The notes under the pieces were generated by a model that was given only the letters and a program-made list of their open reading frames with translations, made no database searches and had not been told where the DNA came from. This document shows, piece by piece, positions 1-28,901 of a DNA stretch of 28,901 nt (position 1 is the stretch's first letter; every line of letters begins with the position of its first letter). This DNA is from a virus. The translations under genes and the position numbers were made by a program. Location: IMG/VR virus record IMGVR_UViG_3300042890_002023, positions 1-28,901 of that record; one strand, 5' to 3'.

Positions 1-153
1 ACGTGGGTATCAACTAACGTTACAGGTTCAACTACTGCATCAGTAACTCAAATAGCAAGTGGTATAAATGTATTAAATTTATTATCACCTGGCTTTATTA
101 CCAGTGATACAGCTTATTATACTGTTTAAATCAAAAATAACGGAGTATCTATT
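1..153. repeat. Left copy of contig-end overlap
   Basis: These 153 bases recur at 28749-28901. I compared the copies base by base and found one difference: T at 127 here, C at 28875 there. Both copies lie in the same reading frame of one gene, and the gene continues sensibly across the joint. This is what an assembler leaves at the ends of a circular or circularly permuted genome, giving a unit of about 28748 bp. A true short terminal repeat is possible but less likely, because the repeat sits in the middle of a coding sequence. Confidence 0.93.
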
Positions 154-7528: not shown

Positions 7529-9571
7529 ATGAAATTATACGAACTAAAAATAAACGAAGATGAACTTGAAGAAGGTTCAGAGCAAGGAATATATGCTATC
7601 TCTTTGGTGGAAAACCCAGCTATTGAAGAAGATTTCATATACTTGTCTAAGGAAGGCGCAGAAGAGAAGGTATTACTTCAAGAAGCGAATGATGAGCAAC
7701 AAACCCTCATTGGTGCAGTACTCGTTCCAAATAAGAAAATCATCCGTCGTGATCCGCAAACAGGTGAAGAATACTACATCTACTTTGAAGCCGACACGAT
7801 AAAAAGAGCTCAAGAATTATATTTCAAAAATAAAAATAATGATAAATTTACTGTTGACCATAAACGTCCAGTAAATGATATCTATGTTTTTGAAAGTTGG
7901 ATTGTTGATGACCCTAACTTTGATAAATCAAGAGCATATGGTTTAGATTTACCTATTGGTTCTTGGGTTGTTATGGCAAAGGTGGATAACAAGAAAATCT
8001 GGGAAGAAGTAAAAAGTGGTGCTTATAAAGGATTTAGCATTGAAGGTTTACTTAAACATAACCTCAAATTAGCTAAATTAGTTGATTTTGAAGAAGATGA
8101 ACCTGAAATTATACCAGTACCTCCTCCATCAGGAAGTATATTAATTGATTTAATCAATCAGACATTACTTGCTCAAATGAATGAAATTGAAGAGGAAGAG
8201 GCTGAATATATGTTACAATCCATTAGAGGCATAATTAAAAAAGATAAACGATTAAAAAAAGGAGCACGTGTTGAACTTGAAAGTTATACAGATTATCCTG
8301 AAGCTGCTAAGAAAGCTGCCGCTTCAGCGATTAAGAAAAATGAGGAAAGAACTGCGTCACAAAAGTGTGGTACAGCAGTTGGCAAAATTAGAGCACAGCA
8401 AATAGCTCAAGGTAAACCATTAAGCTATGAAACCATTAAACGTGTTTATGCTTATTTATCTCGTGCAATAACATTTATTGATAAATCAGATCCTGATTAT
8501 TTAAATAGCTGTGCTTATATTAGTGTTGGTTTATGGGGTGGAGAGGTAATGTTACCTTACGCTAGAAAAATATTACGCTCAAAAGGCGACTTAAAATTAT
8601 CTAAACAAGATGTATTTTCAGATATAATTAAATTTGCTAAACAAACTGATATTACTTTAATTGCTTGTTCAGCAACTAAATTAGAAAAACCAGCACTCGC
8701 TAAAGAATTATATCAAGGTTCATTATTTAAAAAATCATTAGAATATGCTCTTAAAACGACTAATTCTAAAGATGTATACATTGTATCAGCAAAGTATGGA
8801 CTCGTTGGTTTAAACGATGTTATAGAGCCTTATAACGTGACTTTAAAAGATATGTCCGCCGAAGATAGAGATGATTGGGGAGTTAATGTTTATTCAGAGT
8901 TAAAGAAAAAATATCCTCAATTAGATAATTTAAATGTAACAATATTAGCAGGTATGGCTTATTATGAACCATTAATTAAATTAATTAAAAAATATGATTT
9001 ACCTCTTGATGGATTAAGAATAGGTGAATCAATGCAAGAATTAAATGAAAAACTAAACATTGAATTATCTAAATTAGATGAAGATACAAGAATGGAATTT
9101 GTACTTGATTGTATGTTATCTGAATTAGCAGCTAAATCACCTTACAAAGAAGAATTAGCTGAAGTAGGACCTAGAGGTGGCATTAAAGCATCTCCTAAAG
9201 CACCTAAATCAGATACACCTAACCCAAATCCAAAAGGTGAAGGTACAGCTAAAGGTGATGCAAGTGGTAAACGTGGTGCTGAGGTAAGTGCTAAAGATGA
9301 AGAAACACTTAAAAATAAAGCATCTGAATTCAATGATAAAGAATCAAATACCAAATATGGTAAAGCGAATGTAGGTGCCTTAAAATCAGTATTCCAACGT
9401 GGTTTAGGTGCTTATAACACATCTCGTTCACCTAAAGTACAATCACCATCACAATGGGCATTTGCTAGAGTAAACGCATTTCTATATTTGTTAAAAAATG
9501 GTAGACCACAAAATGATGGTTACACTACTGATTATGATTTACTACCTAAAGGACATCCCAAGGTAGAGTAA
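7529..9571 (+). CDS. Multidomain XkdF-like prohead protease with DUF6884-like domain
   Basis: A 680-residue protein with four visible segments. Residues 20-180 match the XkdF-type serine protease domain (Peptidase_S78_2): AISLVENPAIEEDF, the histidine in KFTVDHKRP (H111) and the serine in GFSIEG (S170). Residues ~240-350 form a helical module (ESYTDYPEAAKKAA, QKCGTAVGKIRAQQIAQGKP, YLSRA) that I know from many phage proteins of this kind. Residues ~374-505 look like DUF6884 (LIACSATKLEKPA, LYQGSLFKKSLEYA, VSAKYGL, VIEPYNVTL), a family related in general form to YaaA-like proteins. Residues ~545-680 (EVGPRGGIKASPKAPKSDTP; GLGAYNTSRSPKVQSPSQWA) are another conserved phage module. Prohead proteases normally sit next to the capsid gene; here the gene is last in the late operon, directly before a terminator. 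Confidence 0.82.
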   Translation: MKLYELKINEDELEEGSEQGIYAISLVENPAIEEDFIYLSKEGAEEKVLLQEANDEQQTLIGAVLVPNKKIIRRDPQTGEEYYIYFEADTIKRAQELYFKNKNNDKFTVDHKRPVNDIYVFESWIVDDPNFDKSRAYGLDLPIGSWVVMAKVDNKKIWEEVKSGAYKGFSIEGLLKHNLKLAKLVDFEEDEPEIIPVPPPSGSILIDLINQTLLAQMNEIEEEEAEYMLQSIRGIIKKDKRLKKGARVELESYTDYPEAAKKAAASAIKKNEERTASQKCGTAVGKIRAQQIAQGKPLSYETIKRVYAYLSRAITFIDKSDPDYLNSCAYISVGLWGGEVMLPYARKILRSKGDLKLSKQDVFSDIIKFAKQTDITLIACSATKLEKPALAKELYQGSLFKKSLEYALKTTNSKDVYIVSAKYGLVGLNDVIEPYNVTLKDMSAEDRDDWGVNVYSELKKKYPQLDNLNVTILAGMAYYEPLIKLIKKYDLPLDGLRIGESMQELNEKLNIELSKLDEDTRMEFVLDCMLSELAAKSPYKEELAEVGPRGGIKASPKAPKSDTPNPNPKGEGTAKGDASGKRGAEVSAKDEETLKNKASEFNDKESNTKYGKANVGALKSVFQRGLGAYNTSRSPKVQSPSQWAFARVNAFLYLLKNGRPQNDGYTTDYDLLPKGHPKVE

Positions 9572-9593: not shown

Positions 9594-9624
9594 GAGCCGT
9601 GGTTTTTAATCACGGCTCTTTCTC
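9594..9624 (+). terminator. Intrinsic terminator closing the late/tail operon
   Basis: An 8-bp perfect stem GAGCCGTG (9594-9601) and CACGGCTC (9611-9618) with a 9-base loop is followed by TTTCTCT. It lies 22 bases after the protease stop codon and ahead of the early promoter. Confidence 0.9.
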
Positions 9625-9644
9625 TGTCGTCAAACAATAATAAT

Positions 9645-9773
9645 ATGAAACAATTAGCTAGAATCGCTAAATGCTTCTATAAATATACAACCATATTTTT
9701 ACCCAACCAAAAAGTAATTACGAAAAAGTTTGGCTACTGGAACATTAGGCGTTATCTTTACGTATATTTATAA
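9645..9773 (+). CDS. Possible 42-aa basic protein
   Basis: An ATG-started open frame encodes 42 residues rich in Lys, Arg and Tyr (begins MKQLARIAKCFYKYTT). It lies between the terminator and the replication initiator. The ATG is preceded by the A-rich sequence CAAACAATAATAAT, typical of start sites in this genome. Against it, the promoter at 9729-9760 lies inside its 3' half and the frame is short, so it may be chance. No family recognised. Confidence 0.3.
   Translation: MKQLARIAKCFYKYTTIFLPNQKVITKKFGYWNIRRYLYVYL
9729..9760 (+). promoter_or_regulatory. Bacteroidota-type early promoter (P1)
   Basis: TTTG at 9729-9732, a 20-base spacer, then TATCTTTA at 9753-9760. This matches the -33 TTTG and -7 TAnnTTTG elements of primary promoters in Bacteroides and Flavobacterium. 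The spacer begins GCTACT and contains GGAA, shared with the promoters at 13740 and 13838. Transcription would begin near 9767, about 25 bases before the initiator start codon at 9793. Confidence 0.82.
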
Positions 9774-9792: not shown

Positions 9793-10251
9793 TTGAAAAA
9801 TAATTTCACACAGATACCTAATCATATATTCAAAATGAATATTTTACTGGAAAGTAAGATGATTATAATATACTTGTTATCTAAACCTAAAAAATGGACT
9901 ATTCGTAGAACTGATATTATGCGTACATTAGATATTGGTCAGAATAGATTTAATAATGCTTGGCGTGAATTAAAAAATTTAAATATAATAATAAAAAACA
10001 AAGTATTCGGTAAGTGCGATTTCGCACTCAACGTAAACGCAATATACGATAACGTGAAGTGCGAGAACGATAAGCACGTAAACGATAAGTGCGATCTCGA
10101 ACCATATAGTAATACGGGATCTATTAGTAATACTATATTGGATAGTAATACTATATTGGATAGTAATACGGATGATATAGTAATATATGATGATGATGAG
10201 GATTGGATGAAGGAAATTAAATCACACACATTAAATAATAAAAACAAATAA
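9793..10251 (+). CDS. Winged-helix replication initiator (DnaD / phage replisome organizer-like)
   Basis: A 152-residue protein. Residues 3-66 (NFTQIPNHIF, IIIYLLSKPKKWTIRRTDIM, TLDIGQNRFNNAWRELKNLN) have the form of the N-terminal winged helix of phage replication initiators, where NxFxQIPN opens the domain. The rest is Asn/Asp-rich and low in complexity. It contains repeated SNTILD units and ends in an acidic patch (IYDDDEDW). I chose the TTG start at 9793 because the next in-frame Met (9835) would cut into the conserved opening motif, and an in-frame stop lies at 9775-9777. The gene carries its own iterons (10107-10186), as lambda O does. It is the first gene behind promoter P1. Likely role: origin recognition and loading of host replication proteins. 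Confidence 0.72.
   Translation: MKNNFTQIPNHIFKMNILLESKMIIIYLLSKPKKWTIRRTDIMRTLDIGQNRFNNAWRELKNLNIIIKNKVFGKCDFALNVNAIYDNVKCENDKHVNDKCDLEPYSNTGSISNTILDSNTILDSNTDDIVIYDDDEDWMKEIKSHTLNNKNK
10014..10095. repeat. GTGCGA / ACGATAA repeat cluster in initiator gene
   Basis: A GTGCGA-TT-TCGCAC inverted repeat spans 10014-10027. GTGCGA recurs at 10060 and 10090, and ACGATAA occurs at 10046, 10067 and 10082. The cluster lies immediately upstream of the 18-bp iterons and is more GC-rich than its surroundings. It could be a second set of initiator or host-protein binding sites; the coding region for an Asp/Asn-rich linker would tolerate such repeats. Confidence 0.5.
10107..10186. repeat. Iterons, probable replication origin inside initiator gene
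   Basis: TAGTAATAC occurs at 10107, 10125, 10143 and 10161, exactly 18 bases apart. A fifth, degenerate copy (TAGTAATAT) starts at 10178. The units at 10125 and 10143 are identical over all 18 bases (TAGTAATACTATATTGGA). The spacing equals about 1.7 helical turns, similar to the iterons in lambda O. Repeats of this regularity in the linker of a winged-helix initiator strongly suggest the binding array of that protein and the phage origin. The flank downstream is AT-rich. Confidence 0.72.
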
Positions 10252-10254
10252 GTT

Positions 10255-10545
10255 ATGTCTCAAAAGTATTATCAACCTATTAAACAAGGAACGTATGTTA
10301 AGTTTAAATCTGATAGATTAGATGAATCTAGAATTATTAATCAAACTCCACCCGTACCATATCCTCAGGTGAAAGATGAATTAAAATTTATACATTCTAA
10401 CTTTAGAAAATTAAACAGACAAAGTAGATCATTCCACTCAGAGTATCTACTGAGTATAGTAAGTAACATTAAAAATAGAATTCCAGTTACTCAGAAACAA
10501 TTTAATCATATTATAAAAATCAAAAACGAAATCAAATCAATTTAA
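10255..10545 (+). CDS. Hypothetical early protein, 96 aa
   Basis: Starts 3 bases after the initiator stop and ends 1 base before the next start, so it is co-transcribed in the early operon. The protein is basic, with a Pro-rich stretch (NQTPPVPYPQVKDELK) followed by helical Lys/Arg-rich sequence. No family recognised. Its position next to the initiator suggests an accessory replication role, for example a helicase-loader-like or single-strand-binding partner, but nothing in the sequence proves this. Confidence 0.65.
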   Translation: MSQKYYQPIKQGTYVKFKSDRLDESRIINQTPPVPYPQVKDELKFIHSNFRKLNRQSRSFHSEYLLSIVSNIKNRIPVTQKQFNHIIKIKNEIKSI

Positions 10546-10546
10546 A

Positions 10547-10828
10547 ATGGAAAAAAAATCTAAAAAATTCACAAACAACGAGAAACGTTCATCTCGTATT
10601 CAATCTAAAATGGAAGCTGAATATGGTAAGCCTATTATATTCTATGCTTATTATGCTACTCAGGCTGATGCTTGTAAAAAATTAGGAGTTACACCTGCTG
10701 AAATTAATAAATCTATTCAGCGTGGAGGTACTATTAAAGGTGGTTCTGTAATTAAGGGTGATGGTGTTACATCAGCTTTAACCTTATTAACTAAGATAAA
10801 CGATATTAAAAAACAAAATAACAAATAG
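10547..10828 (+). CDS. Small early protein with NUMOD/HTH-like motif
   Basis: A 93-residue basic protein. The segment YYATQADACKKLGVTPAEIN followed by KSIQRGGTIKGGSVIKG resembles the short helix-turn-helix-like NUMOD1 repeat (A..LGV....I...I..G...KG). That repeat occurs in homing-nuclease-associated and phage DNA-binding proteins. The N-terminus is Lys-rich. There is no nuclease domain. A DNA-binding role is plausible but the resemblance is short. Confidence 0.6.
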   Translation: MEKKSKKFTNNEKRSSRIQSKMEAEYGKPIIFYAYYATQADACKKLGVTPAEINKSIQRGGTIKGGSVIKGDGVTSALTLLTKINDIKKQNNK

Positions 10829-15231: not shown

Positions 15232-15411
15232 ATGTGCATAGGTAATTTTACAGAAGCATTAATTTACGTTTTAACATTTGGCTATGGCAAACCCATTTCT
15301 ACTTGGGTTGCTCATAAATTAGGCTATAAGGATTGTGGTTGCGAAAAGCGACGTCAATGGCTAAATAAAATAGGTCGCTGCAATGAGTCCATTGACCTAT
15401 CTAAATTATGA
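15232..15411 (+). CDS. 59-aa CGC-motif mini-protein
   Basis: A 59-residue protein with a hydrophobic N-terminal half (EALIYVLTFGYGKPISTWVA), then GYKDCGCEKRRQWLNKIG. The CGCxKRRxxLN motif recurs in small proteins of Bacteroidota phages. The stop codon overlaps the start of the sigma-like gene (ATGA at 15408-15411), giving strong positional support. The cysteines could bind metal. Role unknown; the tight coupling suggests work together with the downstream regulator. Confidence 0.68.
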   Translation: MCIGNFTEALIYVLTFGYGKPISTWVAHKLGYKDCGCEKRRQWLNKIGRCNESIDLSKL

Positions 15412-15968
15412 GTGAAAACGAAAAGCAAAAGTTAATAACATTAATTTACGACATTCACAGTGAATGGCTACACCAAGTAGCTTACAATTTCAGCAACAAC
15501 AAACATACTGCCCAAGATATGGTTCAGGATATGTTTATAATGTTGTGCGAAATGAAGGATATTAACAAAATCAAGTATGGCAATACTGTGAATTTATATT
15601 ATTTGTATAAATCACTTAGAAGCATTTACTTAAATAGATATCAAAAACACGCCAGCACACATACAGCACTTCCTGAAGTTGAATTTGAGGCTGATTTTTA
15701 TTCATTAGATAAAGATGATAATTTTGAGGCTATGATCAGACTAGTAAATGAAACATTACAACAAGATATTCATTGGTTTGATGCTATGTTGCTTGATACT
15801 TATTTGAATCGCACTACTAAAGAGGGTAAGTCACACTCAATCAATTCACTACATAAAGAAACTAAAATCAGTACTTCATCAATCTGGACATCATTAAAAA
15901 ATACTAGAGAGATTGTACGTACTAAACTTGAAAAACAAGGTTATAATTCTAAAAGTTACAAACAATGA
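15408..15968 (+). CDS. Sigma-70-like RNA polymerase sigma factor homologue
   Basis: A 186-residue protein of the size of a group IV (ECF-like) sigma factor. Residues 15-80 resemble sigma region 2: HTAQDMVQDMFIMLCEM recalls the usual DAEDLVQDVFLKL, followed by YYLYKSLRSIYLNRYQK. Residues ~140-180 (SINSLHKETKISTSSIWTSL, REIVRTKL) look like a region 4 helix-turn-helix. Such proteins often precede the terminase genes in Bacteroidota phages. It is flanked by ATGA overlaps on both sides. It may direct host polymerase to late promoters, which would explain why I see no host-type promoter ahead of the late genes. It could instead be only a DNA-binding protein of terminase type. Confidence 0.65.
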   Translation: MSENEKQKLITLIYDIHSEWLHQVAYNFSNNKHTAQDMVQDMFIMLCEMKDINKIKYGNTVNLYYLYKSLRSIYLNRYQKHASTHTALPEVEFEADFYSLDKDDNFEAMIRLVNETLQQDIHWFDAMLLDTYLNRTTKEGKSHSINSLHKETKISTSSIWTSLKNTREIVRTKLEKQGYNSKSYKQ

Positions 15969-16546: not shown

Positions 16547-17725
16547 ATGCACTTAAATATAAAAACGTCTGAATTGTTTGCTCGCACCTACAATTCGGAC
16601 AAACGTTTTGTTATACATCAGGGTGGTACTAGAAGTGGTAAGACATACTCTATACTTCAGGTACTAATTATTAAAGCGTTGGAGGCAACTTCACCGCTTA
16701 CTATCTCTATTTGTAGACGTAGTATGCCCTCTTTGAAGTTATCTGCAATGCGTGACTTCATTGGCATTTTAGATGCAATGAACTTATATAAAGAATCTGA
16801 TCACAATAAAACTGAAGGTACTTATCGCTTAGGCAAATGTACATTTGATTTCTTATCAATGGATGATGCGGCTAAGAAGAGAGGATCTAAACGTGACATT
16901 TTATATTTGAATGAAGCGAATGAATTAAGTTATGAGGAACAATTCCAATTAGCTATCAGAACTGAGAAACAAGTTATTATTGACTACAACCCAAGTGATA
17001 ATCAATCTTGGATTTATGATTTATTAGAGGAAAGAAAAGACGAGATAGATTTTATACAATCAACTTATAAAGACAATCCATTTTTACCTACTGAAACAAT
17101 TCGTGAAATTGAAAATTTGAAGTACACAGATGATGATTATTATCGCATCTATGCTTTGGGTGAGAGAGGATCAGGCAGAACGCTTATATTTCAATATCAG
17201 CAAATTAAAGGTATAGACTATCACACCACTCAATTTGTGGGGTTAGGAATGGACTTTGGTTATAGTAATGACCCAACTACAATAGTTGAAATATGGAAAG
17301 GTGGAGTTAATGATTTATTTGTTAAAGAGTTATTGTATAAAACTAAATTAACTAATAACGACATCATTGGCGAATTAAAGAAACTAGATGTTGCACCTCA
17401 TACTCTAATTGTTGCTGACTCAGCAGAACCAAAATCAATTGAAGAACTTAGACGAGCAGGTTTCAACATTAAACCAACTAAGAAAGGTAAAGATAGTATC
17501 AATGTAGGTATCGATTATATCAGAAGACATAATTTGTTAGTTACAGAAGATAGTATTAACTTGATAAAAGAATTAAACAATTATAAGTGGAGAATGGATA
17601 GAGATGGTAATATGACAAATCAACCTATTGATGCGTTCAACCACGCTATTGATGCTTTACGTTATATTGGTACATACACACAATCAAAATCAGGAACTGG
17701 GAAATATTATGTCAAATTCATCTAA
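16547..17725 (+). CDS. terL: Terminase large subunit (ATPase and nuclease)
   Basis: A 392-residue packaging motor. The Walker A GGTRSGKT is at residues 26-33 and the Walker B ILYLNEAN at 118-125, with the catalytic Glu at 123. The nuclease domain has acidic residues at D236 (GLGMDFGYSNDP), D291 (IVADSAEP) and D369 (HAIDALRY), the RNase H-like arrangement of large terminases. The length and motifs resemble the PBSX/XtmB group. The next gene begins inside its last codons (17709). It translocates DNA into the prohead through the portal encoded at 25197 and cuts the concatemer. Confidence 0.95.
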   Translation: MHLNIKTSELFARTYNSDKRFVIHQGGTRSGKTYSILQVLIIKALEATSPLTISICRRSMPSLKLSAMRDFIGILDAMNLYKESDHNKTEGTYRLGKCTFDFLSMDDAAKKRGSKRDILYLNEANELSYEEQFQLAIRTEKQVIIDYNPSDNQSWIYDLLEERKDEIDFIQSTYKDNPFLPTETIREIENLKYTDDDYYRIYALGERGSGRTLIFQYQQIKGIDYHTTQFVGLGMDFGYSNDPTTIVEIWKGGVNDLFVKELLYKTKLTNNDIIGELKKLDVAPHTLIVADSAEPKSIEELRRAGFNIKPTKKGKDSINVGIDYIRRHNLLVTEDSINLIKELNNYKWRMDRDGNMTNQPIDAFNHAIDALRYIGTYTQSKSGTGKYYVKFI

Positions 17726-18392
17726 AATAGTAAAACACACGATCCCAACTAGATGGGAAGAAATTAAGTTATCATTGTACTTAAAGTATTATGATATAGT
17801 TAAAGATAAAAAACCTGAAGATGAAGGTTATAATGAGTTTGTACTCAAAGAATTTGCTCACTATCTCTGTTTAATTCATAGAGATTTATTTTCAGCTTTG
17901 GAAATGAATACTATAAATGAAATTTCTGAGAATATGACTAGGATGTTTAAACAAACATCAGCAATGCCTTTAGTTCAGACATTTAAAATTGATGATGTAG
18001 AATATGGTTTCCATCCTAATTTACAAGAACTTACTTACGGTGAGTATCTTGACTTGACTTTATATGGTCAAAAATTATGGGAACAAGAAAATATATATAA
18101 ATTCCTATCCATTTTATATCGCCCCATTATTCGTAAAAGTGGTAAAGAATATATCTTAGATGATTACTCAGGTACATCTCAAGTTAGAATTGATTTATTT
18201 AAATCACATATGACGTGTGATGTTGTTTGGGGCGCAATCAGTTTTTTTTTGCTTTTACAACTAGCCTTGGTGAACAGTACGAGTCTCTATTTGACGGAGC
18301 TAACTACGGAAATAGCACAAGAGTTGAAGCAAACTTTGCGAACAAATGGGGAACATATCAAACAATCTATACATTGGCTGGAGGGCGTTTAG
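17709..18392 (+). CDS. Tail assembly chaperone-like protein, short (zero-frame) product
   Basis: A 227-residue protein in the zero frame. I chose ATG 17709 (MSNSSKIVKHTIPTRWEEI), which overlaps TerL by 17 bases, rather than an upstream TTG or ATG deep inside TerL. The N-terminal part (TIPTRWEEIKLSLYLKYYDI) and PNLQELTYGEYLDLTLY look like a conserved phage family. Downstream of the T9 run the zero frame continues for 47 residues (VNSTSLYLTELTTEIAQELK; GEHIKQSIHWLEGV) to TAG. A -1 shift at the T run would give the longer product described separately. Two-product genes of this kind in tailed phages usually encode tail assembly chaperones, although the position just after TerL, far from the tape measure, is unusual. 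Confidence 0.72.
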   Translation: MSNSSKIVKHTIPTRWEEIKLSLYLKYYDIVKDKKPEDEGYNEFVLKEFAHYLCLIHRDLFSALEMNTINEISENMTRMFKQTSAMPLVQTFKIDDVEYGFHPNLQELTYGEYLDLTLYGQKLWEQENIYKFLSILYRPIIRKSGKEYILDDYSGTSQVRIDLFKSHMTCDVVWGAISFFLLLQLALVNSTSLYLTELTTEIAQELKQTLRTNGEHIKQSIHWLEGV

Positions 18393-18517
18393 TAGACTTT
18401 GACGCTGTTACCAAATTACCTTTACATTCTTGCCTAACTTACTTAGCTTATCTACAAGATAGATCTCAGGTTGAACATATATTAATCAAACAATCTTCAA
18501 ATCAACTGAATAGATAG
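17709..18517 (+). CDS. Probable -1 frameshift product of the same gene (about 269 aa)
   Basis: The -1 frame is open from the T9 run to TAG at 18515-18517. It encodes FAFTTSLGEQYESLFDGANY followed by NKWGTYQTIYTLAGG and DFDAVTKLPLHSCLTYLAYL. KWG(W/T)YQ(S/T)IY...LAxG...F...T.L....CL..L is a motif I recognise from Bacteroidota phage proteins found in this neighbourhood, so this frame is very likely translated. It has no good start codon of its own (only TTG at 18227), and its conserved part overlaps the zero-frame coding. A join at 18245-18251 would fuse the first 180 codons to about 88 codons of the -1 frame. If the run had one more T the whole gene would be a single frame, so a sequencing undercall is the alternative. 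Confidence 0.65.
18242..18251 (+). promoter_or_regulatory. Slippery site for -1 ribosomal frameshifting
   Basis: Nine T then G (18242-18251) give two overlapping X-XXY-YYZ heptamers in the zero frame: T TTT TTT at 18242-18248 and T TTT TTG at 18245-18251. Both allow tandem slippage by one base with near-perfect re-pairing. I did not find an obvious strong downstream stem by eye. Confidence 0.62.
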
Positions 18518-28145: not shown

Positions 28146-28901
28146 ATGGCTTATACATTTACACAGACTCCGCCTTCATTATCATTAGCGGAATCTCCAA
28201 TGGTATTTACTGTACTTGATACAACTAATGTATCTAAAGATCAGTATCAATACGTACTAAAATTAAAATATTGGACAGGTTCATTCGCACAAGAACCAGC
28301 TACATTTAATTATGTGCTGCAAAAATATCCTAATGCCTCAGGTAGAGGTATGTTTGATATATCCAAGATAATTGGATCTTTATTTGTTGGTGCTGAACAG
28401 GATTACCATCAAATGTATAATTATAAAGTGTATGGTAATTTTATTTACTACACTGCATCTATAGGTGGATATGTAACTGGTTCAGATGTAACTTCATCTA
28501 TTAATCAAGCAATTGATGGATATCAGTTATTTAATAGTTCATCTTATATAGGTGAACCTGCAAATAGTGAAAGTGCATTGTGGCCTATTATGTCATCAGC
28601 ACCTACAACTCAATCATCTTATATTTGTGATTTCTGTGGTGGCACAGGAAACTATGGTTTAATGTCAGTATTGAATTTCTACAATTCATCTAATACTGCT
28701 TCTTATACAGCAGTTGATTTTAATGGAGTATCTAGAAGTTATCAAGAAACGTGGGTATCAACTAACGTTACAGGTTCAACTACTGCATCAGTAACTCAAA
28801 TAGCAAGTGGTATAAATGTATTAAATTTATTATCACCTGGCTTTATTACCAGTGATACAGCTTATTATACTGTTCAAATCAAAAATAACGGAGTATCTAT
28901 T
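28146..28901 (+). CDS. Tail protein, 5' part (continues at position 1; split by contig ends)
   Basis: An ATG-started frame is open to the end of the contig (252 codons) and joins in frame to bases 154-609 at the other end, giving 403 residues. It starts MAYTFTQTPPSLSLAESPMV and continues with VLKLKYWTGSFAQEPATFNY. Ser/Thr-rich beta-like segments follow, with a CDFCGGTG motif near residue 175. This form, together with DECKYTPVVIKF in the second part, is typical of a tail protein family in Bacteroidota phages located before the large tail tip genes. In this copy codon 244 is CAA; in the left copy it is TAA. Confidence 0.82.
   Translation, partial: MAYTFTQTPPSLSLAESPMVFTVLDTTNVSKDQYQYVLKLKYWTGSFAQEPATFNYVLQKYPNASGRGMFDISKIIGSLFVGAEQDYHQMYNYKVYGNFIYYTASIGGYVTGSDVTSSINQAIDGYQLFNSSSYIGEPANSESALWPIMSSAPTTQSSYICDFCGGTGNYGLMSVLNFYNSSNTASYTAVDFNGVSRSYQETWVSTNVTGSTTASVTQIASGINVLNLLSPGFITSDTAYYTVQIKNNGVSI
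28749..28901. repeat. Right copy of contig-end overlap
   Basis: Matches bases 1-153 except for C at 28875 against T at 127. It keeps the reading frame of the tail gene open. Confidence 0.93.

Follow-up and report, generated by a model that had tools for sequence, protein, structure and literature searches.

A probable replication origin embedded in the winged-helix initiator gene of a small phage

Introduction

The question raised by this locus is whether the replication origin of the phage lies inside the gene for its own initiator and, if so, which part of that gene would be bound and which part opened. In lambdoid phages, iterons and an A/T-rich tract are found in the middle of gene O, and the number of iterons varies (PMC7466680). 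In mycobacteriophages, RepA-type and RNA-based prophage origins have been exchanged (PMC7157519). The DNA analysed here, which we call the window, is the whole 28,901-nucleotide stretch of IMG/VR virus record IMGVR_UViG_3300042890_002023. An initial annotation, made from the letters alone, had described regular 18-bp iterons within a winged-helix initiator gene, and had taken this one initiator with its own origin to be the whole replication control of the phage.

Here, we report that the gene carries two adjoining repeat arrays of opposite stability directly behind its winged helix, and we compare them with arrays in other phage initiators and with relatives that lack the gene. The analysis locates a likely origin to the base pair in a small phage that has Bacteroidota-phage traits and is otherwise unannotated.

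Results

A predicted short initiator of the winged-helix family

The features of the locus are collected in Table 1. The TTG start of the initiator gene was adopted because alignment to relatives requires a start at this position. By its profile matches, the protein is a true relative of the winged-helix phage initiators. A leave-one-out winged-helix profile, built from 12 other phage initiators with the window gene left out, finds the gene at E 3.1e-14, the next window ORF being at 0.068; the protein also matches phrog_186 (DnaD-like helicase loader, E 1.3e-6) and phrog_4707 (replication initiation protein, E 0.0014). The first two of these matches bear out the winged-helix nature claimed at the outset. 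Against Pfam Phage_rep_O the protein scores 15.6 bits, under the curated cut-off of 28.7, and no Rep_3 or iteron-plasmid initiator family appears among the Pfam matches up to E 1; the window initiator works like O, but is not filed as O. No close relatives were found in viral contigs and GTDB genomes, the weak matches being confined to phages and plasmids. An AlphaFold model of the initiator alone, with a pLDDT of 38, was too poor for use.

Table 1. Positions of features at the initiator locus of the window and at the corresponding site in related phage stretches.
Feature	Position	Strand	Remarks
Terminator-like hairpin	9594..9625	+	GAGCCGTG...CACGGCTC then TTTCTC; ends structural gene block
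Promoter-like element CGTATATTTAT	9761..9771	+	Ahead of early genes
Predicted replication initiator gene	9793..10251	+	TTG start, 152 aa; profile matches
Winged-helix DNA-binding domain (predicted)	9796..10011	+	Alignment to 12 phage initiators
Six putative 15-bp iterons	10012..10101	+	Units 10012, 10027, 10042, 10057, 10072, 10087
18-bp TAGTAATAC array	10107..10186	+	Units 10107, 10125, 10143, 10161, degenerate 10178; likely DNA unwinding element
Acidic C-terminal tail	10187..10251	+	DDDEDWMKEIK...; relatives have a longer C-terminal region here
96-aa protein of unknown function	10255..10545	+	Same cluster; no helicase-loader match
Cro/excisionase-like small protein	10547..10828	+	phrog_2917 excisionase, E 3.4e-5
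Non-coding element at initiator site	L002 680-1071; L070 5036-5425; L151 3640-3970
DUF6291 gene	L069 5331-5714	-	E 2.4e-9; replaces the non-coding element of sibling L070

Among the compared initiators this protein is the shortest, and it is without the C-terminal region of its relatives, a region that by analogy contacts the helicase loader. Since this region varies within the family, its absence is treated as the mark of a short variant and not as family-defining. The scanned neighbours of the gene gave no match to a helicase or a loader; such a neighbour is common but not universal, and none is annotated next door in Lj965 and Vibrio 209E38-1. The earlier statement that the phage encodes no polymerase, helicase or primase stands for every protein scanned, which is part of the window ORFs.

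The hairpin upstream of the gene is also found at the corresponding place in L002, the stretch of a near-twin phage described below, and in L070. The window has a single copy of CGTATATTTAT, as does each examined stretch of L002, L069, L070 and L151, and in all five related phage stretches it precedes the first early gene. Because of this recurrence ahead of early genes, and because the window encodes a sigma-70 region 2-like protein (15408-15968), CGTATATTTAT is possibly a phage-specific promoter. Downstream, the near-twin keeps a homologue of the Cro/excisionase-like protein, 42% identical.

Two further observations concern other parts of the window. Overlapping ORFs at 17628-18392 and 18227-18517, also present in L002, look like a frameshifted tail-assembly chaperone pair, the first having very poor codon usage at 18261-18350. 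Position 7529-9571 is a single 680-aa ORF in which an XkdF-like protease is continuous with DUF6884 and DUF5824 domains; its counterpart in the near-twin differs in the middle part.

Two adjoining arrays of opposite stability

The TAGTAATAC repeats lie in the low-complexity linker of the winged-helix gene, and TAGTAATA matches exactly at all five unit starts of the 18-bp array, both as first described. Further copies in the whole window are found only at 10826 and 20890, with one more on the minus strand. The claimed identity of two successive 18-mers is confirmed by TRF, which finds 2.5 perfect copies of TAGTAATACTATATTGGA in the 45 bases of 10125-10169 (score 90). These repeats are real and far beyond chance: at period 18 they contain an exact run of 27 bases, longer than every other exact periodic run in the genes examined, of which the next is 15, and this length was reached by none of 2000 codon shuffles and by 0.2% of 5000 synonymous resamplings in which the protein was held fixed (P 0.002). 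Between the fourth and the fifth copy the spacing is 17 bases instead of 18, which shifts the fifth copy into a different frame, with IVIY in place of SNT. The exact 11-mer ATATAGTAATA similarly occurs in two reading frames, at 10104 and 10175. Together, these out-of-frame copies speak for repetition of the DNA itself, beyond that of the peptide.

A second array, overlooked by the initial annotation, lies directly upstream. Its six 15-bp units are, in order, AAGTGCGATTTCGCA, CTCAACGTAAACGCA, ATATACGATAACGTG, AAGTGCGAGAACGAT, AAGCACGTAAACGAT and AAGTGCGATCTCGAA, and every one of them has CG at positions 6-7 and 12-13. The genome is CG-poor, at about 15 CG per kb of the window; with 12 in 90 bp this array is the densest CG stretch of the window, and it contains 6 of the 16 CGNNNNCG sites. 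The chain of CG at period 15 is seven long, compared with four or fewer in 100 simulated Markov genomes; among 3000 synonymous resamplings, a chain of seven never arose and a chain of six arose in 0.17%. Both arrays thus exceed chance even when the protein sequence is fixed. Codon adaptation at the 15-bp array is among the poorest in the window.

The two arrays are opposites in stability. Few parts of the genome are less stable than the TAGTAATAC array, whose 60-mers from 10105, 10120 and 10135 rank in the bottom 1-2% of the window for stability, whereas the adjoining 15-bp array is among the most stable, its start falling in the most stable 1.5% of 60-mers. No DnaA-box cluster was found in the initiator module of the window. 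GC skew, put forward earlier as a check on the origin, shows no turn at 10.1 kb, and AT skew shows none at the array; this counts little, because the near-twin without the module has a broadly similar profile and skew is therefore uninformative here.

Arrays at the same place in other initiators

We surveyed 19 diverse winged-helix (O/DnaD-like) phage initiators, the window included, from phages of Staphylococcus, Flavobacterium, Lactobacillus, Lactococcus, Helicobacter, Vibrio, Gordonia, Agrobacterium, Fusobacterium and Eggerthella, and from a distant relative of the window phage. A significant periodic array (P < 0.02 against codon shuffles) was present in 17 of the 19, compared with 5 of 59 control genes. 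These arrays lie nearly always just behind the winged helix, at about codons 91-170. The units vary in length (12 to 30 bp) and in sequence, such that the position is kept while sequence and spacing drift. The order of a stable part followed by an A/T-rich part was seen in only 13 of the 19. An origin-like array at the linker position is thus usual for the family, as the survey and the rep_origin annotated in Staphylococcus phage phiJB both indicate, and the presence of arrays behind the winged helix serves as a general mark by which these initiators can be searched for.

Relatives without the winged-helix gene

The near-twin, G001, is a complete genome of 29,328 bases with a 123-bp direct terminal repeat, and it is about 90% identical to the window and colinear with it. 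The window itself ends in a 153-bp direct terminal repeat (1-153 and 28749-28901) with one mismatch, a single C/T difference that gives the 5' copy (window 1-153) a stop codon. The two phages diverge between window 9595 and 10861. At this locus G001 lacks both a winged-helix gene and repeats of this kind, and the profile finds no winged-helix initiator elsewhere in it. Instead of the initiator it has about 390 nt of non-coding DNA with CGTATATTTAT at the far end. The module is therefore dispensable or replaceable in this group, and the idea that it represents the whole replication control finds no support. With this pair, the replacement of a protein-dependent origin in a tailed phage could be tested directly.

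The non-coding region of the near-twin is the L002 element of Table 1, and related elements occur at the corresponding place in L070 and L151. They share the blocks TTACA-GTGCT-TG-TGCAG-AAAAC and CGTTATGTTTA...TGCTT-TGTGCG. Between L070 and L151 the element is 98% identical, above the average of the flanking genes, but another segment elsewhere is equally alike; a recent exchange is possible. On the plus strand the near-twin's element folds well beyond shuffles (z -3.96), whereas that of L070 is no better than shuffles (z -0.2), and a conserved RNA structure is therefore not established; the three-sequence consensus has some two-sided changes, on a doubtful alignment. An Rfam search gave nothing above threshold, and the two one-mismatch DnaA boxes in the near-twin's region are no clear excess. 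Pattern matches in L148 and L150, both in coding DNA, were dropped as chance.

L069 is a sibling of L070, with 84-88% identity left of the site and about 74% right of it. In L069 the first part of the non-coding element is missing, and the DUF6291 gene that takes its place carries a significant internal array, with GGTACC-type repeats followed by A/T-rich Asn codons. This gene is a candidate for a new initiator family; tblastn found no relative of DUF6291 among phages, and we found no paper on the family. The window is also without the first part of the element. The location of its initiator gene is similar to that in L069 but not identical, because the window gene comes immediately after the promoter-like element. 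In the five phages compared, a protein initiator with inner repeats and the non-coding element never occur together.

Discussion

We consider it likely that this phage has its replication origin embedded in its own initiator gene. In the proposed mechanism, the N-terminal winged helix would probably bind the six CG-containing 15-bp iterons that follow it directly within the gene, the neighbouring TAGTAATAC array would open as an easily melted stretch, and the helicase, primase and polymerase of the host would then load, so that replication would start at this site. The 15-bp units are assigned as the probable binding sites, and the TAGTAATAC array as the probable opening stretch, because of the phiJB layout, the stability contrast and the lambdoid origins. 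As for the earlier view that the TAGTAATAC repeats are the origin iterons, an origin in the initiator gene is upheld, but these repeats are more likely the unwinding stretch and the 15-bp CG array more likely the bound one. That interpretation is partly supported: right in kind, incomplete in anatomy and overstated on whole replication control.

The assignment of the two arrays could be reversed, with the initiator binding the TAGTAATAC array itself and the CG array being secondary or an accident of codon usage. Although a spacing of 18 bp is ordinary for iterons and two of the units are identical, the 15-bp array is at least as non-random, and the TAGTAATAC array both belongs to the least stable DNA of the window and sits where phiJB and lambda-type origins have their melted A/T-rich tract; we regard this reversal as unlikely. 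Less probable still is a regulatory role, in which the protein would act as a repressor or other regulator and the repeats would be operator sites for its own cluster. Regulators too can be winged-helix proteins, a Cro/excisionase-like gene comes next and the near-twin lives without the gene, but the families matched consist of replication proteins, and operator sites ought to lie at the promoter near 9761, where neither array has copies. A plain tandem duplication in a disordered linker, without DNA function, would suit the low-complexity setting and the double occurrence of SNTILD, yet is very improbable in view of the identical synonymous codons (P 0.002), the copy in a different reading frame and the second, independent array next to it.

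Beyond the embedded origin itself, we suggest tentatively, and with more doubt than conviction, that the replication locus is an exchange site. Initiators with an in-gene origin (winged-helix in the window, DUF6291 in L069) would alternate there with a non-coding element of about 250-390 nt (L002, L070 and L151), which may itself be an origin and would start replication without a phage initiator, by way of a primer RNA or a host initiator. If this is true, DUF6291 is a replication initiator family. In this group, the point of greatest interest is this possible replacement of protein origins by a non-coding element.

Among known systems, mycobacteriophages resemble this group in having a protein initiator in one relative and a non-coding element in another at the same locus (PMC7157519); their origins were shown by plasmid tests, whereas the putative ones here are read from synteny. 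In phage lambda (gene O, ori-lambda) and its Stx-phage relatives, iterons and an A/T-rich tract lie in the middle of the initiator gene, as in the window (PMC7466680), a likeness of layout; lambda has a P-like loader gene after O, and the window is without one. A further parallel is ORF20 of phiJB (KT344895, phietavirus type), a winged-helix initiator like that of the window. The depositors annotated a rep_origin inside this gene, just behind the winged helix, which is where the window arrays lie. Here a 15-bp array with CG is followed by an A/T-rich 15-bp array, the two-part layout of the window, and the A/T-rich array is built on Asn, Ser and Thr codons in both phages. The repeat sequences differ, however, and the phiJB protein, at 256 aa, has a C-terminal domain (pfam09524) that the window protein is without, with dnaC directly downstream where the window has no such gene. 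The window gene is thus a known kind of arrangement, of which it is an added member and a short variant.
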